The notes under the pieces are model-generated. The model was not told the origin of the DNA. It made no database searches and saw nothing but the letters and a program-made list of their open reading frames with translations. A program made the translations under genes and the position numbers. Positions 1 to 16,217 of a DNA stretch of 64,000 nt are shown one piece after another. The DNA comes from an uncultured Gammaproteobacteria bacterium (lineage in GTDB: Bacteria > Pseudomonadota > Gammaproteobacteria > Arenicellales > UBA868): the NCBI GenBank assembly GCA_905612355.1, contig CAJQRU010000072.1, positions 53,185 to 117,184 on the forward strand, in the 5' to 3' direction. Every line of letters begins with the position of its first letter. The first letter of the stretch is position 1.

Positions 1-735
1 CCAATGATTGCGATGTTCATCCTTTCATTTCAAGGGCGACGGGGTGGCACGAGTTTTCCAATGCGTGGGGTAAGTCTGTATTGGTGGGAAAAGCTTATTG
101 AACCGTCTATGGTGGGCGATATGCAGGGAGCATTGATGCGATCGTTGATCCTCGCATTGATCGTTATGGTGATTACTGCGATTTTCTCCACCATGTTGGC
201 GATGGCATTTAGAAAGAGATTTTTTGGGGCCAATGTCCTGTTTTATGTCGTAATGGCTGGATTGATGGTCCCTGGTATCTTGCTCAGCCTCAGTATGGCA
301 ACACTATTGCGGCAGATAGGAATGCCCGCAGCGTGGTGGTCCTCAGGTTTAGGCGTACATGTTGTTTGGACATTGCCGTTTGGGTTTCTGGTGATGATGG
401 CTGTATTTAATCGATTTGATACGAGCCTAGAGGAGGCGGCTCGAGACATGGGCGCGGACGAGTGGACTGTGTTTAAAGAGGTCACATTCCCACTGGTTTT
501 GCCCGGCATTGTTGCGGCAGGCCTATTTGGATTCACCTTGTCATACGATGAATTTGCTAGAACAACGCTCTTAGCGGGCGAATTTAATACGTTGCCGCTG
601 GACATTAATGCCTCTATGACTCAGCGTATAAGGCCGACGCTGTTCGCGCTCGGGACAGCATCCACGTTGTTTTCACTGCTAATGATTGGACTCTTTTTAG
701 GGATTTACAGTCTGCTGTATCGACGGATCAACTGA
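1..735 (+). CDS. ABC transporter permease, PotC/spermidine-putrescine type (5' end truncated by window edge)
   Basis: Multiple TM segments; EAA loop 'LEEAARDMGADEWTVFKEVTFPLVLPGI'; frame open to window start. Confidence 0.9.
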   Translation, partial: PMIAMFILSFQGRRGGTSFPMRGVSLYWWEKLIEPSMVGDMQGALMRSLILALIVMVITAIFSTMLAMAFRKRFFGANVLFYVVMAGLMVPGILLSLSMATLLRQIGMPAAWWSSGLGVHVVWTLPFGFLVMMAVFNRFDTSLEEAARDMGADEWTVFKEVTFPLVLPGIVAAGLFGFTLSYDEFARTTLLAGEFNTLPLDINASMTQRIRPTLFALGTASTLFSLLMIGLFLGIYSLLYRRIN

Positions 736-844: not shown

Positions 845-1927
845 TCAATCGAGCAAGACGGCAGAAGCAGCAGACCAACACAAGGTTTCTTTTTCACCCA
901 CTTTATAGACCTGATTTCTGCTATCCCGGTGTTGCTCGACCTGTATATAGTGTTTTGGCGCGAACTCAAAAACATCCGTTTCTAGCGATCCTAGATATTC
1001 TGTCGCGACATAGGTCGCATCAATGCGATTGGCCATGTCTGGATGATGCCCGGTAACGACCCAGTCTGCTCGAACGCACAGGGATACGGATGAACCGATA
1101 GAGTGATGATGTTGTCCATCAGGGATGCTGACATAGAACATCGAGTCACCATGTTCTATCAAAGCGATAGAACCACTGAGGGAGGTGAGAATGCCATCAA
1201 AGAGGTTGTTGTTTCCAATAAATTCGGCAACAAAGCGAGTACGGGGCATCTCATTGATTTCTCTGGAGGTGCCTGTTTGTTGAATAACAGCATCGCTCAT
1301 AACGATGACCGAATCAGCCATAGAGAGTGCTTCTTGTTGTGAATGAGTCACCATGATGAATGTTATGCCGATTTCTTGTTGAATCTTCTTTAATTCGACC
1401 ATCATGGTTTGTCGAAGACTGTAATCCAACGAACCGAGGGGTTCATCAAGGAGCAAGACGGTGGGGCGACTGATTAAGGCTCTTCCCAGAGCAACTCGTT
1501 GTTGTTGGCCTCCGCTTAGATCACGCGGATGACGATCGGCTAACTCGGTGAGGCCGACGAGGGCGATCATGTCTTGTGCTTGCCGGCGGCGTTCCGTTGA
1601 TTCAATGCCCCGCATCTTCAGGCTAAATTCTACATTCTGTAATACGGTTCGATGCGGGAAGAGGGCGAAGCTTTGAAACATCATCGAGGTGTCTCGTTGC
1701 GATGGCGGCAGATCAGTAACGTCTTGCCCGCTGAGGTAAATCTTGCCGGTGGTTACCTCCTCTAGGCCCCCGATCATTCGCAGCGTGGTCGTTTTTCCAC
1801 AGCCACTAGGGCCTAACATCGCGACAAAAGATCCTCTTTCAATGCTCGCGTTGAAATCGATAACCGCGCGGGTATCCCCGGGGTAGGTCTTGCAGACGTC
1901 GGCTAGAACGACGTCGTAGTCAGGCAT
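845..1927 (-). CDS. ABC transporter ATP-binding protein, PotA-like
   Basis: Walker A 'GPSGCGKTT', signature 'LSGGQQQRVALGRAL', Walker B 'LLLDEPLGSLD', C-terminal TOBE-like region. Confidence 0.95.
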   Translation of the reverse strand: MPDYDVVLADVCKTYPGDTRAVIDFNASIERGSFVAMLGPSGCGKTTTLRMIGGLEEVTTGKIYLSGQDVTDLPPSQRDTSMMFQSFALFPHRTVLQNVEFSLKMRGIESTERRRQAQDMIALVGLTELADRHPRDLSGGQQQRVALGRALISRPTVLLLDEPLGSLDYSLRQTMMVELKKIQQEIGITFIMVTHSQQEALSMADSVIVMSDAVIQQTGTSREINEMPRTRFVAEFIGNNNLFDGILTSLSGSIALIEHGDSMFYVSIPDGQHHHSIGSSVSLCVRADWVVTGHHPDMANRIDATYVATEYLGSLETDVFEFAPKHYIQVEQHRDSRNQVYKVGEKETLCWSAASAVLLD

Positions 1928-1951: not shown

Positions 1952-4516
1952 TTAATTGACGGCCTTTGATGTGGCGAGAACAAGGCTCCATACGGTTTCG
2001 AATGGAACCTCGTTGAAGACGCCATCCTGATTGAATTGGGCGAGCGCTGAAACCGCCTCTAACTGTGTGGTGTCTGCACCGGCGACACCTTGGAGTATTT
2101 CGATCGCTTCGACGAAGGTTGTGGATTCGCGTTCACGCTTTGTCTTCAGGGTTGTCTTGAGTAATGTGCCGATATTGGCGACCGCTTCCTGAAAGCGTCC
2201 TGCGCCATTGGGAGTCCCGAAGACGCCGCGCACGCCATTTTGAGCAAATCGCTGGCGTAGCCCGTCGGGAAGTGATTGAGCGAGCCCTTCAAGCGCTTCT
2301 CCAATTCCAAAACCGGTGGTAAAGAGGCCTCGAATGTTGTCTATGGTTCCGTCATCACTGCCGCCATACATTCTGATTTGGGCCCCCTGCAGAGCGTTGC
2401 CCATCGCTTTAGCCTGATCGCTACGAACGTCTCGTTCTGCTTCTATGTGCATTTTTGATAGTTCTAGGAACGTCGCTGCATCGTTGTATTTCTTCAGAGC
2501 GTCTGCTTTGGCTTCGATGCCGCTCGCTTCAGCTTCTAGCATGCGCTGCGTATTCGCGACCCGGAGTTGTTCGATCTCCATCTCCGCGCGGCCCTTTGCT
2601 GCGGCTTCTTTTTCGATGCCAATAGCCGAAATTTGTTGTGCGTCACTGGTGGCCTGTGCGCGTGTACGAGTGGCTGCGGCCTCGCGATCAGCGGCTTCTT
2701 TCCTAGCGTCGGCCTGAGCAAGCATATGCATTCGTGTAATTTCGGCGTTGTTTTCCTCCTCCACACGGCGTGTATCTGCGTTATTTTCAGCTTCGATCAG
2801 GTCGACGATCTTCTGACGTTCTGCGTCGGCGATATATCGCACCGAGTCCGCGTTATGTTCAGCCTGTTGTCTGGACGCTGTAGCCTCAAGTCGTTTTGCC
2901 GCCGCAAAGTCAAGGTCGGCGTCTTTCGCGGCTAACGCTATTTCCCGATTACGCTCTTCACTTTGGCGCGCCAAGGAACGTTGCACCTCAGCAGCTTCAC
3001 GTTTTTGCGACTCACTTAGAATCGACGTGTCTTTCGCGATCTGCGCCTTCTCGAGGTCCAACTCCTTATTGATTTCCTCTTGTTCGACCTTCCACTTCTC
3101 TTCGAGCAGGAAGCGCTGTTTTTCACTTAACAAGGTGGCTTGCGCTTCCGCTACATCTTTCTCTTGAGCAGAAGTGGCAAGAGCGTCCTGTTTGCTGACA
3201 TCTAAAAGAGCGAGTCTAGTTTTGAGTTGTTCCTGATTGATGGCGATTTCTGCCTGTTCAGCGGCTTTACTCCGCTCAAGGCGGGCACTTTCTTCACGGG
3301 CAGTGATCGCCGTCTGGCGTTCGATGTCGGCTTCATCTCGTTGCCGTTCGTTAGCGATTAACTGTATTTGTTTATCCTTTTGTGCCGCATCCAATGCGAT
3401 CTCGCGGGTAATTTGAGCCAGCTCTTCCTCTTTCGTTTTTTCAACGAGCTCTATTTGCCGATCTTTTTCTGCTTTATCCAGTTCGAGCTTCCGTGTGATT
3501 TCGGCGAGTTCTTCCTGCTTTGCTTTGCCGATCAGGACGATTTCACGATCGCGTCGTTGTTGCTCGATCTGTTTGCCTTTTTCGATTTCCGAAGATTCGC
3601 GTTTTCTGGACTCCTCAATGATGGCGACATCACGCTCAGTGCGGAGTTGTTCTACCACGCGTTCGTTTTCGATCTCCTTTTGCTCGACAGACAGTTTCTG
3701 ATCGAGGACGTAACGTTGCTTTTCACCCACATGGAGGGCTTGTTCGTTGGAAATCGCCCTGTCTTGTACTGAACGAGCGAAAGCCTCTTGCCGTTCGATT
3801 TCCAGCAACTCGAGCTGAGTCTCTAATTCCCTTTGTCGAATAGCGATACTGGTGCGCTTTTCTGTTTCATGAACGTCGCGTTTCGCCCGTGAAGTAATCT
3901 CGGTAATGATTCGGAGTCCTTCTGCATCAAATACATTATCGGTTTTGAAGTACTCTTTTCCTGTTTGTTCCATTGATACAATGGTGACTTCTTCTAGGAC
4001 GAGTCCATTGGCGCTAAAGCTTTCGATGACTTGGGACTTTATGTCGCGGGCGAAGGTGTCACGATTCTCATGGAGTTCTGCTAGGTCTTTTGTTGCGGCG
4101 TAGCTGCGCAATGCACTGACGATTTTTGCTTCTAGGAGATTTCGAACAGTGTCTGGATCAAAGGTCTTTTGACCCAGACTTCTACTAGCGGTGAGAAGCG
4201 ACTCTGCGGTGTGTCCGACGTGAGTATAGAGTTCGGTGACTACATCGATTCGAATATTGTCATGAGTCAAAATGGCCTGATCGCGCGCACGGCCAACGAT
4301 TAACTTTATCGTTTCCAACGAAACCCAGGAGACTTCGTGAAATACAGGTAGAACAATGGCACCTTGGCCTAGGCATACACGGGTTCCACCGAAACCGGTA
4401 CGGATGAAGCCCATATTGGCAGGAGCCCGTTTATAGACCCAGATAGAAATGACATAGAAAATGGCAACCGCAACGATTGCTAGGAGAACGATAGTAATTA
4501 GGCTTTCGATGGACAT
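1952..4516 (-). CDS. Flotillin/SPFH-family protein with very long coiled coil
   Basis: N-terminal TM anchor, SPFH-like region (VRNLLEAKIVSALRSYAATKDLAELHENRDTF), ~450 aa of Glu/Lys/Ala-rich coiled coil. Confidence 0.85.
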   Translation of the reverse strand: MSIESLITIVLLAIVAVAIFYVISIWVYKRAPANMGFIRTGFGGTRVCLGQGAIVLPVFHEVSWVSLETIKLIVGRARDQAILTHDNIRIDVVTELYTHVGHTAESLLTASRSLGQKTFDPDTVRNLLEAKIVSALRSYAATKDLAELHENRDTFARDIKSQVIESFSANGLVLEEVTIVSMEQTGKEYFKTDNVFDAEGLRIITEITSRAKRDVHETEKRTSIAIRQRELETQLELLEIERQEAFARSVQDRAISNEQALHVGEKQRYVLDQKLSVEQKEIENERVVEQLRTERDVAIIEESRKRESSEIEKGKQIEQQRRDREIVLIGKAKQEELAEITRKLELDKAEKDRQIELVEKTKEEELAQITREIALDAAQKDKQIQLIANERQRDEADIERQTAITAREESARLERSKAAEQAEIAINQEQLKTRLALLDVSKQDALATSAQEKDVAEAQATLLSEKQRFLLEEKWKVEQEEINKELDLEKAQIAKDTSILSESQKREAAEVQRSLARQSEERNREIALAAKDADLDFAAAKRLEATASRQQAEHNADSVRYIADAERQKIVDLIEAENNADTRRVEEENNAEITRMHMLAQADARKEAADREAAATRTRAQATSDAQQISAIGIEKEAAAKGRAEMEIEQLRVANTQRMLEAEASGIEAKADALKKYNDAATFLELSKMHIEAERDVRSDQAKAMGNALQGAQIRMYGGSDDGTIDNIRGLFTTGFGIGEALEGLAQSLPDGLRQRFAQNGVRGVFGTPNGAGRFQEAVANIGTLLKTTLKTKRERESTTFVEAIEILQGVAGADTTQLEAVSALAQFNQDGVFNEVPFETVWSLVLATSKAVN

Positions 4517-4628: not shown

Positions 4629-6929
4629 TTAGCTGCTTTCTCTAACCGGTTTTTCTCCAAAGTCGAAATGTGATCGTTTTCCTGGCGCACCCAGGAGCCG
4701 TTGGCGTAATGCTTCCGTTTTCTCAACGTCGATGGTCCCGATGTCTGAATCGATCACCACGCCATAATACTCTTTGGCCGACTCAATGGTGGTTAATCCA
4801 CGTGCGACGTCCTTTTGGACTGCTTCTACAGGGCGTCGCAGCGGGTCTCCCCAACCTCCAGTGCCAGGACCTGCGTAAAGAAGTTTATCACCCGGGTAAA
4901 CGGGCAAACGGTCTATTTTGGGAGCGAGCGTTCGGCGTTCACCGCTTTTGGTGGTCAAAGACTTTTCAGAACGCGATCCGGGTCGACCGCCAAAAATACC
5001 CCATGGCTGGCCAGTTTGGCGATCATCTTGAATTGACAATGCTCCGGGTGCCGTAAATCGGTAGGTTGTTGCAACGCCGTTACCACCCCGAAAGGATCCC
5101 GCACCACCAGAGTCTGGAATACAGCGGCGGGAATCAACTCTGATTGGTGCTTGATGTTCCATCGCCTCTATAGAATACAGTTTTGTCGTGTGTTCCCAAC
5201 TCGGTCCATCGATGCCGTCCGCAGCCAAACGTGCCGGTATCGCCCCGAAGTGGGTTTCAGCCAGCGGTAACCCCTGTGATGCGTCGTCCGGTACAAATGT
5301 CAAAACGCCCTGATTTGATTCTCCTGCCGCTACGACCAGGAAATCAGCCGAGTGGCTGAACACCCCATTGATGACATCTCGTAATCGACCTAACAGGTGC
5401 CTGCGACTCCCCAAGGCGGCAGGGAAGGCTGCCTTAATCAGTGAACCTTCGGGTAGTGTGATGTTGAATAATGAATTGCCACCGCCGGATGGTTCCATCT
5501 CTGGGTCGATACGACGAAGGAGGTATCGACCCACAAGATTCTGTAGAGTCGATTCCTGTAGATGGAGATTAATGGGTCCGAACGCCTGGGCATCCGTGCC
5601 AGTCCAATCCAAATATGCTTTGTCTTCTTCTCGCCAGATGGTCACCTTGAGTCGAAATGGGCCGTTTCCACAGCCGTCATCGTCCACGTAATCTTCAAAT
5701 GATTGCGGCTCACTGGGAAAGTACTTGGGTATGATGGCGCGCATCACCTGACGTGTCCGCTCTAGCAGTATTTGACTTGCCCGGGTATAGCTCGGCTCAC
5801 CAAAGCGTGCACATAATTGAAGCACTCGGGCCTCACCTATCCTCGTGGCCGCCACTAGTGTCATTAAATCATTATGATTCGCAACGGGCGCCCGGGTATT
5901 GCTCGTGAGAATGGCAAGCGCTTCGTGATTTAGGTCCCCGTTCTTGTATAACTTGATGGGTGGAACGCGCAGGCCTTCCCCAAAGATCGAATGTGTAGTT
6001 ACCGAGTTACTGCCAAGTGATTCGCTGCCAATATCGGTCATATGTCCGTAGGCCGAACTAAAGCCCACGAGCCGGGCCCCTAGAAAGATGGGAGTCACCA
6101 CGGCCCAGTCGTTCAAGTGCCCGCCCGCTCCGCCCGGGCTATAAGGGTCACTGTGTAGAATGACATCACCGGGGGCGAGGTCAGGCATCGAGGCTCGTAA
6201 CATTTTAGGTAAATCGGTTTCAGTATGACCCACGAGCAAATGCCCGTTGGCATCTGCGATCATGGTGTCGGCGTCACGTTGGAGACGGATCCCGGCGGAC
6301 ATGGCGCTGCGAACGAGAACGACCTCCATCTCTCGTCGAGCGGACCTTAGAGCAGTCTCCACAATATATGGAAGCGATTTTTCAACATCGTCTCCAGCGC
6401 GAGTGTTGGCTTGTCGAACTCTCGAGATATGTTCGCTTTGGCGCAGCGCGTCGGTGGGCCCGGGGCCAGGTGCCTGGGGTGTGCTTTGGTGTCCGTGGGC
6501 AGATATGAAATCAGCGTGGGTATCCGGTGCTAAATCGGCGTGACAACGGGCGAGCGCATCATCTGTTGCTCGTTGAAGGGCGATGCCGATATTGCCATCA
6601 TTAACGGCCGTGCCAAACTGCATTCGGGTTTGTCCCATCGCCGTTAGACGACAAAGCACCCGGACCTCGCCAGGCTCCACCTTATGTTCAACAATTTCGT
6701 AAGACCAGGCTTTGGCGTAAGTGTCTGTAAGCAACGTCGTAATGTGTGGGCCCACTGAGGATGGCGCGTTATGGGTATCATTCTCCGTTAGATTCGGGGA
6801 TCTAGGCGTCTGACCCGCCTCATCACCTGCGCCAGGCGTACCGAGCGCCATCTGTGTCGCAAATAATCTATCAAACTCGCTTTTGTTGGCGTCGGCGAGT
6901 TCCTCTAAGGATAGGTCAGGTTTGTTCAC
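4629..6929 (-). CDS. HyuB-family protein (hydantoinase B/oxoprolinase; copy 1) with unusual ~150-aa N-terminal extension
   Basis: HyuB core 'ALRSARREMEVVLVRSAMSAGIR...DPYSPGGAGGHLNDWAVV', 'GPGTGGWGDP'; N-terminus homologous to ORF 10513-10962. Confidence 0.9.
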   Translation of the reverse strand: MNKPDLSLEELADANKSEFDRLFATQMALGTPGAGDEAGQTPRSPNLTENDTHNAPSSVGPHITTLLTDTYAKAWSYEIVEHKVEPGEVRVLCRLTAMGQTRMQFGTAVNDGNIGIALQRATDDALARCHADLAPDTHADFISAHGHQSTPQAPGPGPTDALRQSEHISRVRQANTRAGDDVEKSLPYIVETALRSARREMEVVLVRSAMSAGIRLQRDADTMIADANGHLLVGHTETDLPKMLRASMPDLAPGDVILHSDPYSPGGAGGHLNDWAVVTPIFLGARLVGFSSAYGHMTDIGSESLGSNSVTTHSIFGEGLRVPPIKLYKNGDLNHEALAILTSNTRAPVANHNDLMTLVAATRIGEARVLQLCARFGEPSYTRASQILLERTRQVMRAIIPKYFPSEPQSFEDYVDDDGCGNGPFRLKVTIWREEDKAYLDWTGTDAQAFGPINLHLQESTLQNLVGRYLLRRIDPEMEPSGGGNSLFNITLPEGSLIKAAFPAALGSRRHLLGRLRDVINGVFSHSADFLVVAAGESNQGVLTFVPDDASQGLPLAETHFGAIPARLAADGIDGPSWEHTTKLYSIEAMEHQAPIRVDSRRCIPDSGGAGSFRGGNGVATTYRFTAPGALSIQDDRQTGQPWGIFGGRPGSRSEKSLTTKSGERRTLAPKIDRLPVYPGDKLLYAGPGTGGWGDPLRRPVEAVQKDVARGLTTIESAKEYYGVVIDSDIGTIDVEKTEALRQRLLGAPGKRSHFDFGEKPVRESS

Positions 6930-6941
6930 GGCGGTGTCGTG

Positions 6942-8993
6942 TTATACGCTCTGGACTGTCTGAGGTTTAATCAAAAGAGTGCCGTCAGGGCAAACAGTAG
7001 CGTCATGGCCTGGGTGAATGAGTGTTGTGGCATCGTATTGCAGTATTACAGCAGGCCCTGAAACAGACATGTCCGAGGTCAAATCCAGGCGTTCGTATAC
7101 TTGAGTGTCCAGGAAATCTCCATCAAAACATATTCGGCATTGATCTGGGATTGTGGATTCCGGTCTTCGTAATTGGCTTTTCGCCTTTAATGTCGATACC
7201 TGAGGTTGTGTATATCCAATGATTCGCAAGTTGACAATCTCAACCGGTAGCTCTCTGTCAAATCCGGATAGGGTCTGGTGTGCGGATACAAACTGCTCTT
7301 CCAACTTATCGAGGTTTGCACTCGGATTTGCGAGATGTAAGGGCAGTGTTATCTCCACGCTATCGCCAGCGTAACGCAGATCGGCTTCTGCCAGGAAGGT
7401 GTACTTATCTTTGGCTGATCCGTCGTCTTGCAACTGGGCATTAACGTGGGTTTGCAGCTTTTGCAATACCTGATCGAGCAGTGTGCTGGACACAGTGGTA
7501 ATCGGTTTTAGTATGGTCTGAGACAATTCGTGACGTTGCGATGCAGACAGGGTTCCGTGGGCTGATAGCATTCCCGGTTCGGGCGGTATGACAACAGGAA
7601 ACATATTTCCCAGCATTCCAAGCGCGTTGGCGTGCATTGGGCCGGCACCGCCGAATGCAATCAACGTTAAATGTTTCGCCTCTAGATGTTTTTCCGACGC
7701 TAGCAGGCATATGTTTCCGTAAACTTTCTCGTTCGCGACATCAATTACTGCTTTGGCTGCCTCTACAAGATCCATTCCGAGCGCTTTTGCCACCGGGGAC
7801 ATCGCGGTTTCGGCGGCACCGGTATCTATTGGAAATCGTCCCCCTAACAACCCGAAGGGTAGTCGACCCAGAATTACATTGGCATCGGTTAATGTCGCGA
7901 CGGTTCCGCCAAGTCCGTAACACGCCGGACCCGGGCCATTGGGGGTGGGGGCCTTTATACGAATCATGCCCGTTATCGGGATGTCGACCAAGGAGCCTGC
8001 GCCGGCTCCGATATGTCGCGTGCCCAGCGTTGGGAGTCCCAGGCGATAGGGGCCGACCGATCCATCGCGCAAAGGCGGTCGTAGCGTCTGATGGAGCAGC
8101 GTAATCTCTGTTGTGCTTCCCCCCCAGTCCAAAGCGAGCGCATCGCCGGGGGCCGCGGAAGAGGCAATCTCGTGCGCCGCCCTGGCGGCACAGGCGGAAC
8201 TGGACAATGCGGCAAAGATTGGAAAACGCTGCGCTCGTTCCGATCCCATCAATCCGCCATCCGATCGCGCTACCAATATGTCCGGCGGTGCAGATAGGTC
8301 TGTGAATTTGTCATTCAGAATCTTCAGGTGAGTCATCATGCTCCGTTGAAGATAGGCGTTCATGACGGTGAGAGAGGTACGCTCAAATTCACGAAAGACC
8401 CGTCGTAGTTCGCTCGAGAGTGTCACCGGAAAGCCTGGAGCAAGGTTTGATATCAGATCGCGGAGCATGCGCTCGTGTATGGGGTTGGAGTAAGAATGAA
8501 GTAGTGATATCGCTATATGTTCTGCCCCAAGGTGAATAATTTCCTGAATCATGTTCGACGCCACCGAACTATCTAGCGGCTGTAGAATCTGTCCCTCGGC
8601 TGACATCCGTTCCGGAATTCCGCGCGTCAGCGTAAGATCCGCCAGTGGTTCCGCCTGGGTGGCCGTGTGGGGGTTGGATGAGGCAAAGCCCTCAGATACC
8701 CCGCCTAGAAGGAGAATGTGCTCAAAGCCTTCACTGGTGAGTAGAGCGACCTTCGGTCCGTTTCGTTTAGCGACGGTCAACGCTGGTATCGATGTGCTGT
8801 TAACAACCGTCGCGATGTCCGCCGCCGCTACTTTGCTGGTATCGAGGAGTTCACGAAGTCCAGTAAAAACTGCTGATGCCAGGTCCTCGGGCGTCGAAAG
8901 AACCTTTGTAGCGTATAGCTTGCCGGACCCCTCATCCAGAAGGGATAAGTCCGTAAATGTCCCTCCGATATCAATCCCTAGGCGGGCAGCCAT
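6942..8993 (-). CDS. HyuA-family protein (hydantoinase A/oxoprolinase; copy 1)
   Basis: 'RLGIDIGGTFTDLSLLDE', 'GDALALDWGGSTTEI', 'LIAFGGAGPMHANALG'. Confidence 0.93.
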   Translation of the reverse strand: MAARLGIDIGGTFTDLSLLDEGSGKLYATKVLSTPEDLASAVFTGLRELLDTSKVAAADIATVVNSTSIPALTVAKRNGPKVALLTSEGFEHILLLGGVSEGFASSNPHTATQAEPLADLTLTRGIPERMSAEGQILQPLDSSVASNMIQEIIHLGAEHIAISLLHSYSNPIHERMLRDLISNLAPGFPVTLSSELRRVFREFERTSLTVMNAYLQRSMMTHLKILNDKFTDLSAPPDILVARSDGGLMGSERAQRFPIFAALSSSACAARAAHEIASSAAPGDALALDWGGSTTEITLLHQTLRPPLRDGSVGPYRLGLPTLGTRHIGAGAGSLVDIPITGMIRIKAPTPNGPGPACYGLGGTVATLTDANVILGRLPFGLLGGRFPIDTGAAETAMSPVAKALGMDLVEAAKAVIDVANEKVYGNICLLASEKHLEAKHLTLIAFGGAGPMHANALGMLGNMFPVVIPPEPGMLSAHGTLSASQRHELSQTILKPITTVSSTLLDQVLQKLQTHVNAQLQDDGSAKDKYTFLAEADLRYAGDSVEITLPLHLANPSANLDKLEEQFVSAHQTLSGFDRELPVEIVNLRIIGYTQPQVSTLKAKSQLRRPESTIPDQCRICFDGDFLDTQVYERLDLTSDMSVSGPAVILQYDATTLIHPGHDATVCPDGTLLIKPQTVQSV

Positions 8994-9232: not shown

Positions 9233-9751
9233 ATGGAATCCTCACAAAACCGGTGGCGACGGCCCGGAGCTTGGATCGGGCTGGGTATTTTTGCTGTCCT
9301 TGTTCTTTTTTTGCTGTTTTACCAACCGGTAGAACAGTACTTAATGGAGCGCATCCCACAAATCCATTTTTCCAATATTCTTTTCTGGTTTGCATCGGTG
9401 GTCGCGATCATCAGTTTCGCCATATCGCACCGGCAGTCGTTTAAAAAGAATATATTTGGCCAATTTTCTGAAATAAGTGCGCAAGAATTGGTTTTCGATA
9501 CCCTGCAGATAGCGATTTTAGCCGCTGTCATATTATGCGCCGGGGCCACTATTCAGGCAGTAGAGATGCTGAGTGAGCATCTAATGAATGATGGCCAGCT
9601 CATCACCGCGGTATTCGGCAGTCGCTTGCTTTCGGTGTTTGTTTTGATGTTAATGGCGATTCTGTTTTATTTGTTGCACCGTGTAGTGCGGGCTTATAGG
9701 GTGGGTTGGCGCCGAGGCTGGACACCTCCCGGAGCGGTCGGGCGTGGCTAA
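9233..9751 (+). CDS. Integral membrane protein of unknown function (~4 predicted TM helices)
   Basis: Hydrophobic segments 'WIGLGIFAVLVLFLLFY', 'ILFWFASVVAIISFAI', 'LQIAILAAVILCAGATIQAV', 'LLSVFVLMLMAILFYLL'. Confidence 0.65.
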   Translation: MESSQNRWRRPGAWIGLGIFAVLVLFLLFYQPVEQYLMERIPQIHFSNILFWFASVVAIISFAISHRQSFKKNIFGQFSEISAQELVFDTLQIAILAAVILCAGATIQAVEMLSEHLMNDGQLITAVFGSRLLSVFVLMLMAILFYLLHRVVRAYRVGWRRGWTPPGAVGRG

Positions 9752-9778: not shown

Positions 9779-10501
9779 ATGAACCACGACTGGGAAGAAC
9801 CGACCCGTGCTGATTACGCAGCGAAGGGTTTAGGAAGTCGGTCTGGGTTTGGCGAGAAACCGGCACTTCTGATCGTTGATTTCAGTAACGGATTTACCGA
9901 TCCTGCATCCCCATTAGGTGGAGATTTTGATAGTCAGGTTGACGTTACCGCTCGATTATTGGCGAAGTTCAGAGCGGGATGTTTTCCGGTGGTCTATACC
10001 ACGGTAGCTTACGACCCAGACTTTAATGATGCGGGCATATTTATAGAGAAGATTCCCGCATTATCGTTGCTCGTTAAAGGCTCGAAATGGGTAGAGATTG
10101 ATCGGAGAATTGCTCCGCTAAAAGGAGACGAGGTCATCGTTAAGAAATACGCGAGTGCATTCTTTGGGACCGAGTTGGATCGATATTTTCATGGGCAGGG
10201 CGTCGATACTGTGGTGATTACGGGGGCGACGACCAGTGGGTGTGTGAGAGCCTCTGTAGTTGATGCATTGCAATATGGCTTTCGGACCATCGTCTGCCGT
10301 GAGGGTGTCGGTGATCGTGCGGAGGGGCCCCATCACGCCAATCTATTTGATATGGATTCAAAGTACTGTGACGTAAAGGTTGAACAGGAGATCCAAGAAC
10401 ACCTTGAGTCATTGGTTGTGTCTGGGGGAATGCAGGGGCGCGCTAATAACGAGTTTCGTCAATGGTGGCAAGGAAGATTGCCAACGCGTGTTGATTTCTG
10501 A
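9779..10501 (+). CDS. Isochorismatase-family cysteine hydrolase (N-carbamoylsarcosine amidase-like)
   Basis: 'ALLIVDFSNGFTDP', 'VIVKKYASAFFGTELD', catalytic-Cys motif 'GATTSGCVRASVVDALQYGFR'. Confidence 0.9.
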   Translation: MNHDWEEPTRADYAAKGLGSRSGFGEKPALLIVDFSNGFTDPASPLGGDFDSQVDVTARLLAKFRAGCFPVVYTTVAYDPDFNDAGIFIEKIPALSLLVKGSKWVEIDRRIAPLKGDEVIVKKYASAFFGTELDRYFHGQGVDTVVITGATTSGCVRASVVDALQYGFRTIVCREGVGDRAEGPHHANLFDMDSKYCDVKVEQEIQEHLESLVVSGGMQGRANNEFRQWWQGRLPTRVDF

Positions 10502-10512
10502 GAACTTTTTGC

Positions 10513-10962
10513 ATGGCCTCAAACTCGCGTAACGCTGGAAACTCTTTTTCAGAACTGCTTGATGCAAATCGAGAGCAGCTGGAGAGGCTCTATTCGAGCG
10601 TCAATATCGAGTCTTCACGCCCAGGTTCGAAACCGAGCAGTGGTGAGGTGTCAGTTGTTCGGTTAAGCGACGACGCCCGAGAGCATTTGGGCGATCCAAT
10701 CGAATGGTTGGAACAACATTATGCCGGCAGGTGGCGACATGAAATACGAGATCGTCGTGTCGAGGATGATGAGATGCTTGTGTTAGTGCGGTTGGAGCTT
10801 CCCGCGCTTGGCATCCGTAAAAGTCAGTTCGGGCGAGCGCCAGTGAACGAGCGTTCAGGTAGGCCGCTAGACCTGGGTCAGAAAGGGGGTATCGGCGAAG
10901 AGCGGCAGGCGTGCGATGCGGCTGTGCGTGACGCCCTTAGACGGTGTATCGAACTGTTCTGA
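10513..10962 (+). CDS. Small protein of unknown function, homologous to N-terminal extension of HyuB copy 1
   Basis: 'SFSELLDANREQLERLYSS' and 'WRHEIRDRRVEDDEMLVLVRLELPALGIRKSQFG...AVRDALRRC' match the N-terminus of ORF 4629-6929. Confidence 0.75.
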   Translation: MASNSRNAGNSFSELLDANREQLERLYSSVNIESSRPGSKPSSGEVSVVRLSDDAREHLGDPIEWLEQHYAGRWRHEIRDRRVEDDEMLVLVRLELPALGIRKSQFGRAPVNERSGRPLDLGQKGGIGEERQACDAAVRDALRRCIELF

Positions 10963-11007: not shown

Positions 11008-11913
11008 GTGAAAAATATCAAACCATTTAGGTTGCGGAATCATTCTGGTTTTTCTATCCGATCTGATGACTTTCTGGGTCAGCATGTTGTGTTCTGTTGT
11101 ATCACTTTAGGCGCTTTCGCCTCAGGAAGTAACCAGCTTACAGAGCTTGTTTCGCGTTTGGGCTCACGAAACGTTCGAGTGGTCGTCATCACCCAAGGGG
11201 GGCTTGGGGCCAATCAGGATTTTTCGATGCGGATCGGAGGCTCGATAGACGTTTTGCTCGATGACGATGGCACAGTGTCTCAAATGCTTAGAAGTGTTTG
11301 TGGTCGGGACCGCGTTGACTGCCAGGCGTTTTTGGCGGTTTTAGGACCGATGGGTCAATTGGTGAAATGGCTGGATGCTGGTGACTTGAAAGGTGGACTG
11401 GAAGCGTTAAATCATTACTTCTTGGCGAAACGATTAATCGGTGATCGTGTTCCGGATGTTCCTCTTCAACAATTGGAAGATGGGAAAGTATTGACGCGCA
11501 GTTTCGGTGAATGGTTCGCGAAAAAGCGAGTGGTGGTTTTCGGGGTGCCTGGTGCGTTTACGCCTGTCTGTAACCTAGAGCATCTACCAGGGTATACCGC
11601 CGCCGCAGGCCAAATGCACGCGAGAGGTGTGGACCAGGTAGTTTGTATTGCCGTGAACGATGCGTATGTGATGGATGCGTGGGCGCGTGCTACCAAAACC
11701 CCGAGTACGGTTGCCATGTTGGCGGATGGGAGTGGCCGCTTTACGAGGGCGATGGGCTTGTCACTGGACCTGAGGGGCGCAGGGCTTGGGATGCGCTCCT
11801 GCCGTTATGCGATGCTCGTCGAAGGAGGAGTTATCATTCACATGAACGTGGAGACGGGATTTGATGTCAGCGTCAGTGGTGCCGCGCCGATGCTACAGTT
11901 GTTGAACCACTGA
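11008..11913 (+). CDS. Tandem thioredoxin-fold protein; C-terminal Prx5-type peroxiredoxin domain
   Basis: C-terminal 'FGVPGAFTPVCNLEHLPGY...GVDQVVCIAVNDAYVMDAW'; N-terminal half AhpC-like without the peroxidatic Cys. Confidence 0.8.
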   Translation: MKNIKPFRLRNHSGFSIRSDDFLGQHVVFCCITLGAFASGSNQLTELVSRLGSRNVRVVVITQGGLGANQDFSMRIGGSIDVLLDDDGTVSQMLRSVCGRDRVDCQAFLAVLGPMGQLVKWLDAGDLKGGLEALNHYFLAKRLIGDRVPDVPLQQLEDGKVLTRSFGEWFAKKRVVVFGVPGAFTPVCNLEHLPGYTAAAGQMHARGVDQVVCIAVNDAYVMDAWARATKTPSTVAMLADGSGRFTRAMGLSLDLRGAGLGMRSCRYAMLVEGGVIIHMNVETGFDVSVSGAAPMLQLLNH

Positions 11914-11936: not shown

Positions 11937-13829
11937 CTAGGATTTGTTTTCATTGGCCGATAGGGTCATCCATTTTTGGAAGACTGGGGTGGTCGGTGGC
12001 TCAAGGTGGGTGTCTGACAGACAGTTGGTTTTCAACTCCTCGACGCTGCCACCAAAATCGAATAATTCAATCTTTCCCCGTGACGATGAGAGCTGACGAC
12101 GCAACTCAGCCGTAGCGGTGTCATTGACTTTATTGTCGGTGGTGATGACAACGCCGTAACGTTTTGCGCCTTCGGGCGAAACCAATCGCCTTCGGACATC
12201 CAATGCAACTGTGGCGGGGTCACGTGCAAGGGGGTCGCCCCAACCACCACCGCCCCAGGTGTTGAAATAAAGCGTATCTCCAGGTGACACTTTGACTCGA
12301 TCACATTTAGAAGGCATCCATTCTGATTCACCAGTATTGCGCACCATCAGTTTCGTACTGCGTTTTCCTGGTCGCCCACCATTTACACCCCAAGGATGGG
12401 TAAGCCAACGATCATCATGGATGGAAATTTCCCCAGGCTCGAGAAATTGATAGCCCATGGATAGGCCATTACCCCCCCTATGTAGCCCGGCACCGCCACT
12501 ATCGACAATCGTTTCATACTGAACAATTCGCAATGGAAAGTATGCCTCCAGGAACTCGTTAGGTACGTTGGTAAAGGCGGGCCACAGGGAATGGCCGTCC
12601 GGGCCATCGCCCGCGGGCCGCCCGGGGACTCCGCCAAAGCCAATCTGATAGAGTTGATACCACTCACCTTCTTTGTCATAACCGGAATACATAAAGTGGG
12701 GACTGTCAGAAAAACCGGCAGCACACAACGCATCTGGTGAGCTTTGGCCGAGCAGGCCGCTCATGACGTCAAAAATGCGGGCTAGCATATGCGTCCGTGA
12801 ACTCAATGCTGCGGGCCTGATCGGCTTCAGTATAGATCCGCGGGGAATCCTGACGTCGACCAGATCATAAAAACCATCATTAAAAAGTATTTGCGGGTCA
12901 AAAAGATTGATAAAAAATGCCCCCAGGAACATTTTGAACATCTCCTCATTTAAGAGGAAATTGACCGAACTGATGGACTGTGGGTCAGTTCCGGCGAAAT
13001 CGAAAATGACCATTTCGCCGTCGCGCCACATGGTGCATTCGATTTTATACGGACCCATCCCCATTCCGTCGTCATCGATATAGTCAATAAAGTGTTGTTT
13101 TGATTCGGGAATCACCTTGTTAAGAATGGATCCCATGGCACGTTTGTTTCGATCCAGCATCTCTTGCATTGCCGATATCAACGGGTCAACTCCAAAGCGT
13201 TCGACCATTTCAACAATACGTCGTTCCGCCAGGCGAAGCGCTGCTACCACCGCATTGAAATCTGAACGATTCCATTCTGGGAGGCGACAATTGCGAAGAA
13301 TCATTTCCAGAATTTCTTTGTTTAGTTCACCCTTGCGATAGATTTTGACCGGAGGAATCTGAATGCCTTCTTCAAATATTTGCGCAGCATCGGTCGGTAG
13401 GCTGCCAGGCACCTTGCCACCGATGTCGGTCATGTGTCCAAACATCGCAGCCCAGGCCACGATCCGTCCATCGATATAGATGGGCATCATCATCAACCAA
13501 TCGTTCAGGTGGCTGATCGCACCGTTGCAGGTGTACGGGTCATTAGTCAGAAAAATGTCACCCTCTTCAATGGTGCCGTCGTAACCTTGCTGAAAACCCC
13601 AGAAGAATGATCCGAACTGGCCGACCACCATTTTTCCTTCCTGGTTAGCTATCATAGGAAAGGCGTCGTGTTGTTCACGTATGCCCGGTGACATGGCAGT
13701 CCTAAACAGCACCGCGTCCATTTCTGTCCGCGCATTACGTAAGGCATTTTCGATGATGTCTAGCGTAATCGGATCAACGGCGACAGGTTGAAACGGTTTC
13801 GTATTGCTTTGTATCAGTTGTGCTGGCAT
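11937..13829 (-). CDS. HyuB-family protein (copy 2)
   Basis: 'ALRNARTEMDAVLFRTAMSPGIREQHDAFPMI', 'NDPYTCNGAISHLNDW', 'WGGGGWGDP'. Confidence 0.93.
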   Translation of the reverse strand: MPAQLIQSNTKPFQPVAVDPITLDIIENALRNARTEMDAVLFRTAMSPGIREQHDAFPMIANQEGKMVVGQFGSFFWGFQQGYDGTIEEGDIFLTNDPYTCNGAISHLNDWLMMMPIYIDGRIVAWAAMFGHMTDIGGKVPGSLPTDAAQIFEEGIQIPPVKIYRKGELNKEILEMILRNCRLPEWNRSDFNAVVAALRLAERRIVEMVERFGVDPLISAMQEMLDRNKRAMGSILNKVIPESKQHFIDYIDDDGMGMGPYKIECTMWRDGEMVIFDFAGTDPQSISSVNFLLNEEMFKMFLGAFFINLFDPQILFNDGFYDLVDVRIPRGSILKPIRPAALSSRTHMLARIFDVMSGLLGQSSPDALCAAGFSDSPHFMYSGYDKEGEWYQLYQIGFGGVPGRPAGDGPDGHSLWPAFTNVPNEFLEAYFPLRIVQYETIVDSGGAGLHRGGNGLSMGYQFLEPGEISIHDDRWLTHPWGVNGGRPGKRSTKLMVRNTGESEWMPSKCDRVKVSPGDTLYFNTWGGGGWGDPLARDPATVALDVRRRLVSPEGAKRYGVVITTDNKVNDTATAELRRQLSSSRGKIELFDFGGSVEELKTNCLSDTHLEPPTTPVFQKWMTLSANENKS

Positions 13830-13847: not shown

Positions 13848-16217
13848 CTACACGTTGATCGGATTAATTAGAATATTCCCTACGGGATCTACGTCACCTG
13901 CATGGTTCGGCAGGATCAGAGTGGTTGAGTCCATTTCAGTAATGATGGCTGGGCCCAAAATTCGATCGCCATACCTGAATTGCGATCGATCATAAATCAC
14001 TGCGCCATGATCATGCCCATCGACAAAGATATTGGTTTGAGCGTAAACGGCGCGCTGGGGGTCGCCACCGCCTTCGGGGAGTCGCTGTGCCGTCGCCGAG
14101 CTTTCGCGTCCTTGAACGAGAGCGCGTAAGTTGTAAAGCTCCCGTTGGGTCTCGAGTGAGAAGGTGAACATTTGTTCGTGCATCTTGTCAAAGCGTTGAC
14201 CTAGGCCCTCTAGGCCATCTTTCTTGAAATCTTCGGGCGACACATCGACCGTTAGTCGCATTCCTTGTCCAGCGTACCTCAGGTCGATTTGATACAGCGT
14301 GGTCTGTTCACTCTCAGGCACTCCCTCGGCGTGGAGCGTCTGCGCCGCAGCGGTCGCAAGTTCCTGGAGGGAAGACAACACCTCATCATTAGTGGTCTCG
14401 GAAAATCGTCGTACAAAGGTTCGGGAAGCTTCGTCGCGAACACGGGTAGTCGCGTCACCGTAAGCACAAAGCACACCGGGGCCTGGCGGAATGATGACCG
14501 GCCACGAATTCATCAGCCTGCCAAGCGCGTTAGCATGAAGGGGGCCGGCGCCACCGAAACCCACTAGGGCGAAGTCACGCGGATCGAAACCTTGTTCAAC
14601 AGAGACCAGTCGCAGTGCCCCAAACATATTCTCGTTAACGATGTTGATGATGCCTTCGGCAGCCTCCTTTAAGGACAAACCCATCCCCTTTGCCACTATA
14701 GTGACCGCCTGTTCGGCTTGTTTTCGGTCAATGGCCAGTTCCCCGCCGAGTCTTGCGTCTGCTGGCAGATAACCCAGTACAACATTGGCATCGGTGACCG
14801 TGGGTTCCATGCCGCCTTTCCCATAGGCTGCAGGCCCAGGTTCTGCGCCGGCACTTTGTGGACCCACTCGTAAGGCTTTCGTCAATTCCGGGACATAAGC
14901 GATTGAGCCACCTCCAGCTCCCACCGTTCGGACGTCAACCGATGACGAGCGAACAGTCACATCGGCAACACGGGTTTCTCGCCGAGTCTGAGGGACACCG
15001 TTCTGAATCAGTGCAACATCTGTCGAGGTGCCTCCCATATCAAAAGTCAGGAGGTCACTAAAGCCGGCTTGTTTCGCGATCCATATCGCACCCGATACCC
15101 CACCTGCTGGACCACTCATCAATAAATTAACCGGCGTTGCTTTGGCAGCTTCCGCTGAGGCTAAGCCACCGTCGGAACGTAGGATATGCAACTGCACCTT
15201 ATTCATTCGGCGATTTAACTCGCCTTCTAAACTCTCCAGATAGGTCGAGACTACGGGGCGAATGTAAGAATTGACAACGGTTGTTTCCGTTCGCTCGTAC
15301 TCATACATCTCGGGCACGACCTCGGAAGAGATCGACACTGGAATATTGGGCATTACCCTTTCGGCAATAGCGCGGACTCGTTGCTCATGAATGCCACTGG
15401 CGTAGGCATTCATTAACGAAACGGTTAAGGCTTCGATGCCTTCGTCTGCCAGGGCTTTCAAAGAAATTTGCAATGCATCTTCATCAAGAGGGGTAACAAC
15501 GTTGCCTTTCGCATCCAGTCGTTCGATCGCTTCGATGGTAAGTTCGAGCGGAGCTAGGGGGTCGCTCTTGTTAAAAATTACCCAACCACCCAGACCCCCG
15601 GGAACATAGGAGCGGGCGATCTGAAGCACCTGTTGATATCCCTTGGTAGTAACCAAGCCAACCTTTGCCCCTGATGCTGTTAACACTGTGTTGGTGGCGA
15701 CAGTCGTTCCGTGCATTACATGACTAATATCAGATGGAGCGACATTTGCCGAGTTACAAACGCGTTCAATCCCCTCCAGCACGCCGATAGATGAGTCCTG
15801 TGGTGTTGAGATAACTTTGGCAGTGAAAAAGTCACCACTGGTTTCATTGATCAATAAAACATCGGTAAAGGTTCCTCCTACATCGACGCCCAAGCGATAA
15901 GACGCAGTTCCAGTCGAAGCGCGCCGTGTCGTTTGGTCTCTATGAACCGGTGTATCTTCTCTTTCAGCCCGGGCCGTGACATCTGCCGGTAGCTGTGGTG
16001 TTTTTTGTTCTCGACTAAGCGGCTGTGACTTAGAGTCGGGTTTTGAGCGAAGTTTGCTGGGGGTTGTAGTGGCTCTGTCAGCCTTGGTCTGATGCTCTGG
16101 CGACGAGACGTCTATGTGTTTTGGGGTTTCGGGTTTGTTCAGTCGCGTAAATTCATCTTTAGCGCGTCGCAATTCACTGTCAAACCAGTCCGTTATTTTT
16201 CGGGAATCCTTACTCAT
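13848..16217 (-). CDS. HyuA-family protein (copy 2) with ~105-aa N-terminal helix plus disordered linker
   Basis: 'YRLGVDVGGTFTDVLLINE', 'LLTFDMGGTSTDVALI', 'VGFGGAGPLHANALG'; N-terminal 'ITDWFDSELRRAKDEFTRL' followed by Pro/Ser/Thr/Lys-rich linker. Confidence 0.92.
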   Translation of the reverse strand: MSKDSRKITDWFDSELRRAKDEFTRLNKPETPKHIDVSSPEHQTKADRATTTPSKLRSKPDSKSQPLSREQKTPQLPADVTARAEREDTPVHRDQTTRRASTGTASYRLGVDVGGTFTDVLLINETSGDFFTAKVISTPQDSSIGVLEGIERVCNSANVAPSDISHVMHGTTVATNTVLTASGAKVGLVTTKGYQQVLQIARSYVPGGLGGWVIFNKSDPLAPLELTIEAIERLDAKGNVVTPLDEDALQISLKALADEGIEALTVSLMNAYASGIHEQRVRAIAERVMPNIPVSISSEVVPEMYEYERTETTVVNSYIRPVVSTYLESLEGELNRRMNKVQLHILRSDGGLASAEAAKATPVNLLMSGPAGGVSGAIWIAKQAGFSDLLTFDMGGTSTDVALIQNGVPQTRRETRVADVTVRSSSVDVRTVGAGGGSIAYVPELTKALRVGPQSAGAEPGPAAYGKGGMEPTVTDANVVLGYLPADARLGGELAIDRKQAEQAVTIVAKGMGLSLKEAAEGIINIVNENMFGALRLVSVEQGFDPRDFALVGFGGAGPLHANALGRLMNSWPVIIPPGPGVLCAYGDATTRVRDEASRTFVRRFSETTNDEVLSSLQELATAAAQTLHAEGVPESEQTTLYQIDLRYAGQGMRLTVDVSPEDFKKDGLEGLGQRFDKMHEQMFTFSLETQRELYNLRALVQGRESSATAQRLPEGGGDPQRAVYAQTNIFVDGHDHGAVIYDRSQFRYGDRILGPAIITEMDSTTLILPNHAGDVDPVGNILINPINV

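Follow-up and report, generated by a model that had tools for sequence, protein, structure and literature searches.

The Rad52 annealase fold has been called 'not common' and 'probably unique to SSAPs', and of the five SSAP fold elements that have been listed the first three are present in all SSAPs (PMC9870868). Among the ATP-dependent cyclic-amide hydrolases (HyuAB), solved structures are available for N-methylhydantoinase/ATP-dependent hydantoinase (PDB 7hk5, 9h03) and for caprolactamase CapAB (6yra), and in caprolactamase the Asp-His-Asp-His metal site of the B subunit and the ATP-site residues Asp11 and Asp295 of CapA have been shown to be essential (PMC8453981). In the literature as far as searched, no paper joins Rad52 and hydantoinases. 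Here we describe a locus at which the two appear to meet; it lies in a stretch of 64,000 nucleotides from a marine bacterium, referred to below as the window, and contains the subunits HyuA1 and HyuB1, whose bodies are homologous to those of the solved enzymes.

Free and fused copies of one module

The free copy is a protein of 149 aa encoded at 10513..10962 (+), exactly as quoted in an earlier sequence-only reading of this DNA. It is the sole long open frame of the segment, the opposite strand having no long frame and a reverse-complement frame rich in stops. Orthologs are found at the same position in six other genomes (G001, G002 with two loci, G007, G012, G014 and G016), and the gene is under purifying selection, with a dN/dS of 0.23 for the whole gene and of 0.21 and 0.17 for its core in comparisons of close relatives. 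The plasmid collection gave no match to the free protein.

That reading had proposed that one domain exists in this cluster both free and as the N-terminal extension of HyuB1, and the own-genome search, the shuffle tests and hhalign all bear it out. HyuB1 (4629..6929, -) is a Hydantoinase_B subunit of 766 aa with PF02538 at residues 189-696, and its module occupies residues 8-133 (6531..6908, -; core 63-133). Both alignments quoted earlier between the two proteins are correct. A search of the genome with the free protein brings up, beside the protein itself, the N-terminus of HyuB1 (E 7e-7). The Smith-Waterman score against HyuB1 residues 1-150 is 113, whereas shuffled sequences average 27 (sd 4.6) and none of 5000 attains that score, for an extreme-value p of about 2.5e-11; when the parts are tested singly, p is 9e-10 (core) and 2e-5 (N-terminal helix). 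A lack of significant similarity between the two sequences had been named as the result that would speak against the claim, and hhalign of the free and fused ortholog groups gives instead P 4.4e-17. The free and fused copies are thus one domain. In HyuB1 the module core evolves more slowly than the enzyme body (dN/dS 0.036 and 0.113 against 0.228 and 0.153 in close relatives) and is therefore not a decaying remnant, while the linkers, unlike the core, are under relaxed selection. HyuB2 (11937..13829, -; 630 aa) serves as an internal negative comparison, as no module is detected with the module profile either in it or in a fourth HyuB (L084:611-2410).

What the 149-aa protein and HyuB1 share is a helix, a disordered linker and an alpha-beta-beta-beta-alpha core. 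In the AlphaFold2 model of the free protein, built on a 23-sequence alignment, an N-terminal helix at residues 12-28 (10546..10596), with the conserved motif S-F/L-x-x-L-x-x-x-N-K/R-x-Q/E, is followed by disorder to about residue 52 and by the core at residues 62-148 (10696..10956), which consists of a helix (62-70), strands 75-84, 87-96 and 101-110, and a long helix (128-148). Confidence is moderate, with a mean pLDDT of 66, about 80-85 over most of the core and low values in the loop 111-127. In a second model, made separately for full-length HyuB1, the elements follow one another in the same way, namely helix 8-29, disorder 30-61, helix 63-71, strands 75-85, 88-97 and 100-109, helix 114-133, and a disordered linker leading to the Hydantoinase_B body; residues 30-61 and 140-181, which separate helix, core and enzyme body, are long disordered linkers with pLDDT <50. 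Of the 29 members, at least 26 share the residue at each of ten positions (L66, W74, V90, L94, G107, A109, A133, A137, A141 and C145), the last four forming a ladder of small residues along the final helix.

The family profile yields a further match on the same contig, 4.3 kb beyond the left end of the window (E 7.9e-6). This third copy, which the sequence-only reading had missed, forms the C-terminal end (residues 640-705 or so) of a HyuB3 of 708 aa encoded at L084:6749-8875 (+). HyuB proteins with the fusion at this end are encoded in two other genomes, G012 and G014, as well (E 1e-6 and 2e-6; the other two loci are L055:6325-8469 and L057:2107-4275). Compared with the other copies by hhalign, the C-fused copies give P 2e-11. 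The module therefore occurs free, N-fused and C-fused within one supercluster. Since the C-fused copies consist of the core only, without the N-terminal helix, helix and core may differ in role.

Enzymes, neighbouring genes and distribution

HyuB1 has a clear Hydantoinase_B domain (PF02538, E 6e-112) that conserves the Asp-His-Asp-His metal site in alignment to 6yra_B, and its partner ATPase subunit HyuA1 (6942..8993, -), assigned by Pfam, keeps the equivalents of CapA Asp11 and Asp295 at the ATP site. The nearest solved relative of the pair is N-methylhydantoinase. With its metal and ATP-site residues conserved, HyuA1B1 is probably active, and a role as a dead scaffold is rejected because these ligands and aspartates are intact. 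In this genus HyuA1 shows drift in two motifs that are usually conserved, with NSTSIP for GTTVATN and GGSTTE for GGTSTD, the key aspartates being kept. HyuA2 (13848-16217, -) has an N-terminal extension of about 105 aa, composed of a conserved helix W-F-D-x-x-L-x-x-A-K-D-x-F and a low-complexity linker; the extension is present in five genomes, is absent from HyuA1 and is not homologous to the module helix.

The free gene lies between a gene for an isochorismatase-family hydrolase (9779..10501, +), 11 bp upstream, and one for a two-part peroxiredoxin-like protein (11008..11913, +), 45 bp downstream, both assigned by Pfam and synteny, and this order is constant at its orthologs. The peroxiredoxin-like protein consists of two thioredoxin-fold parts, with AhpC-TSA_2 at residues 43-95 and Redoxin at 145-283. 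Divergent from HyuA1 lies a gene for a 172-aa protein with four transmembrane segments (9233..9751, +; hydropathy and synteny), and beyond HyuB1 follow genes for an SPFH/flotillin-like protein of 854 aa (1952..4516, -; Band_7, FloT-like, co-occurrence), for a PotA-like ABC importer ATPase (845..1927, -; Pfam and synteny) and for an ABC importer permease (4..735, +; BPD_transp_1).

This arrangement, which the sequence-only reading had likewise not noticed, is maintained well beyond the window. Wherever the contig extends far enough, the flotillin-like SPFH gene is directly downstream of the N-fused HyuB and the 4-TM gene is divergent from HyuA, and the arrangement spans Gammaproteobacteria, Alphaproteobacteria and SAR324 MAGs; the ABC ATPase and permease genes come next at loci with a sufficiently long flank. 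The SPFH proteins have 854-938 aa, and the copy in the window has one N-terminal transmembrane segment. It also has a very long charged coiled region, and paralogs of it occur close to the third pair of HyuAB genes in G012 and G014. All three genomes with a C-fused HyuB3 also have a 4-TM paralog beside it, and an ABC substrate-binding protein adjoins there as well. A natural reading of the cluster is that HyuAB would open an imported cyclic ureide or lactam, which the isochorismatase-type hydrolase would cleave next.

On the whole the module is rare, since only the window genome gave a good match when the class and the phylum were sampled at random (369 and 399 genomes). In its own family 8 of 33 genomes carry the module, and the seven of them with the free protein are exactly those that have the SPFH ortholog, the contig of the eighth module-bearing genome ending short. 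A scan of GTDB species, with patterns derived from the helix that may miss distant relatives, found the fused form at 16 loci, in marine Gammaproteobacteria, Rhodospirillaceae, other Alphaproteobacteria and one SAR324 MAG. One genome, G002, has two divergent versions of the whole cluster (L051 and L052, on contigs C236 and C174), and both versions include a free and a fused module of their own.

Relationship of the core to the Rad52 superfamily

The sequence-only reading had proposed a Rad52-type fold from a residue pattern, and this proposal has gained support from two separate models by Foldseek and from profile-profile comparison. Against the PDB, the model of the free protein matches human RAD52 at all of ranks 1-14 (best E 3.9e-4, probability 1.00), with dsRBDs next at about 1e-2; against BFVD, a phage 'DNA repair protein Rad52/59/22' comes first (E 8e-5), and SAK3 and Erf proteins are also listed. 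The HyuB1 model likewise finds RAD52 first after the matches to the HyuB body (4.4e-3), with Rv1738 close behind (4.7e-3). An acetone-carboxylase gamma-like fold, which the same reading had named as an example of an unrelated fold that would speak against its claim, was not found with the module by Foldseek or PDB profile searches; a protein of that kind, too, would add a small subunit to a related enzyme.

Because Rv1738 and dsRBDs have a similar topology, profiles were compared. Bacterial Rad52 (PF04098) was not found in 56 gammaproteobacteria, and for this reason the Rad52 profile was made from human RAD52, with its letters 100% checked in the PDB, and five phage proteins. With all 29 module sequences, hhalign gives Prob 96.2, P 2.5e-9 and a score of 57 against this profile, compared with a maximum of 22 over 200 column shuffles; an earlier comparison with 23 sequences gave P 6e-8, which was reached by 0 of 599 shuffles, and reversed profiles stayed at background. 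By subset the free proteins alone (8 sequences) give a Prob of 56% and the C-fused copies alone 14%, so the Rad52 signal needs the pooled module family. Compared with human RAD52 alone, the module gives no significant result; the Pfam models Rad52 (PF04098) and dsrm do not match it, searches of Pfam, NCBIfam and PDB sequences with the module returned nothing usable, and in PHROGs the matches were weak and scattered over families without a name (best E 6e-5).

The antiparallel three-stranded beta-sheet of the superfamily has its counterpart in the module, the antiparallel order being judged from the Foldseek match, and so has the long alpha3 across the sheet (128-148 in the free protein, 114-133 in HyuB1), whose packing is taken from the same match and whose ladder A133-A137-A141-C145 aligns with RAD52 alpha3. 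A helix at 62-70 (free) or 63-71 (HyuB1) stands in the alpha2 position in the correct order. The beta-hairpin and alpha1, which vary across the superfamily, have no counterpart, the stretch from the N-terminal helix to the alpha2 position being disordered (pLDDT about 22-56).

We also considered that the resemblance is convergent and that the core is an unrelated domain of the dsRBD-like or DUF1876 (Rv1738-like; Rv1738/Rv2632c) kind. Members of both appear in the Foldseek lists with similar TM-scores to short targets, and both share the topology alpha-beta-beta-beta-alpha or beta-beta-beta-alpha. Unlike Rad52, however, they show no significant profile similarity to the module, with P 1e-3 and Prob 20 for a dsRBD profile of 15 sequences and P 2e-3 and Prob 13 for a DUF1876 profile of 11 sequences; moreover the FG-x-x-W motif and the i+4 ladder Ala/Ala/(Ala,Gly)/(Cys,Ala) of alpha3 align with the Rad52 family positions. 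Convergence is thus unlikely, and the module is very probably a relative of the Rad52 superfamily in fold and profile.

Function of the module and comparison with known systems

The features by which RAD52 binds DNA are missing from this relative. In the joint alignment the hairpin bearing R55 has no counterpart, and the equivalents of K102, K133, K152 and R156 are absent or variable; the K-R-A-L-R-x-F-G segment is not kept, with R/A/T/V at its first position (K152) and R/K/Q/W at its second (R153), the latter being K, Q or W in several members. The module cores are neutral to acidic, with a net charge of 0 to -4. Because the hairpin and the DNA-binding residues are absent, strand annealing by the module is unlikely, and judged by its residues it would not be an annealase. 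The broader proposal of a nucleic-acid-binding domain, for single-strand annealing or for regulation, through which HyuB would moonlight on DNA or RNA, could appeal to the Rad52 homology and to the dsRBD-like folds next in Foldseek; the same losses and the neutral to acidic core speak against it, as do genes that sit within a transport and catabolic cluster and not beside recombination genes, and we regard it as very unlikely. The main rival to an assembly function is an allosteric or trans-acting regulatory role, in which the module would regulate HyuB or gate its substrate from within the same chain, with the free protein as a trans-acting activator or inhibitor. The strong constraint on the HyuB1 core and the fusion to catalytic B subunits in both orientations would suit such a role, but the long disordered linkers fit tethering better than tight allostery and HyuB2 does without the module; we regard this account as rather unlikely. 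Finally, the N-terminal helix might be a cargo-targeting tag, of the microcompartment or encapsulin type, common to several enzymes of the cluster. A helix with a disordered linker has the look of such a tag, and HyuA2 also starts with a helix and a long linker; yet the pairwise hint of a helix shared with HyuA2 (p 0.009) failed the profile test, in which HyuA2 is not recovered, and we reject it. Encapsulin is present in 0 of the 8 module-bearing genomes, and shell genes are absent but for a BMC locus in two of them (G012:C9 and G016:C45), elsewhere on the genome and unlinked to the cluster, so that microcompartment or encapsulin cargo is rejected as well and the tag appears most improbable.

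From the portability of the module, its disordered tethers, the lost DNA-binding residues and the constant SPFH and 4-TM neighbours we infer, with a probability of about 0.5, that the module serves assembly or docking in a cyclic-amide pathway associated with the membrane. The 149-aa protein is, on this reading, a reduced Rad52-superfamily module in its free form, with a separate amphipathic helix, a disordered linker and then a putative alpha2, sheet and alpha3. Having lost the DNA-binding hairpin and basic residues, the module most likely acts as a protein-protein assembly or docking domain, which would gather the HyuAB hydrolases and the free adaptor at a membrane site of the SPFH/flotillin-like and 4-TM proteins, beside the ABC importer; the imported lactam or ureide would be opened there and handed to the isochorismatase-type hydrolase. 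Docking, self-association of the copies, the SPFH and transmembrane partners and channelling are all inferred alike, and several of the linked genes could be linked solely through membership of one pathway. More tentatively, this non-annealing Rad52 branch may be a portable assembly module whose three forms co-assemble into a flotillin-scaffolded, membrane-attached metabolon around the cyclic-amide hydrolases, and by analogy, equally tentatively, such co-assembly might be likened to the rings or filaments of Rad52.

These data suggest that a repair fold has been reused to assemble enzymes at the membrane. The module family would then be a counter-example to a fold restricted to SSAPs, as a Rad52-type core without DNA-binding residues, in three topologies, within a catabolic enzyme system. 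It would show the reuse of a DNA-repair fold for protein assembly, and the metabolon reading, if true, would make it the first domain of the Rad52 fold whose role is purely metabolic and structural; the free module and the 4-TM and SPFH proteins would also offer a specific handle on enzyme recruitment by bacterial flotillin-like scaffolds.

Compared with the solved enzymes 7hk5, 9h03 and 6yra, whose aligned parts start at about residue 186 of HyuB1, HyuB1 has an extra N-terminal region of about 180 aa (module and linker) and HyuB3 an extra C-terminal region. Like Rad52, RecT, Erf and Sak3 (RAD52 PDB 8rj3, 8ril; PF04098), the module has a three-stranded sheet and alpha3 in this order, preceded by a helix in the alpha2 position. 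Unlike Rad52, it has a core of about 75-90 aa instead of about 180 aa, carries neither a hairpin with Y-(I/V)-(E/D)-G nor the K-R-A-L-R-x-F-G basic motif, has no Pfam match, and is found within a catabolic operon and fused to an enzyme.
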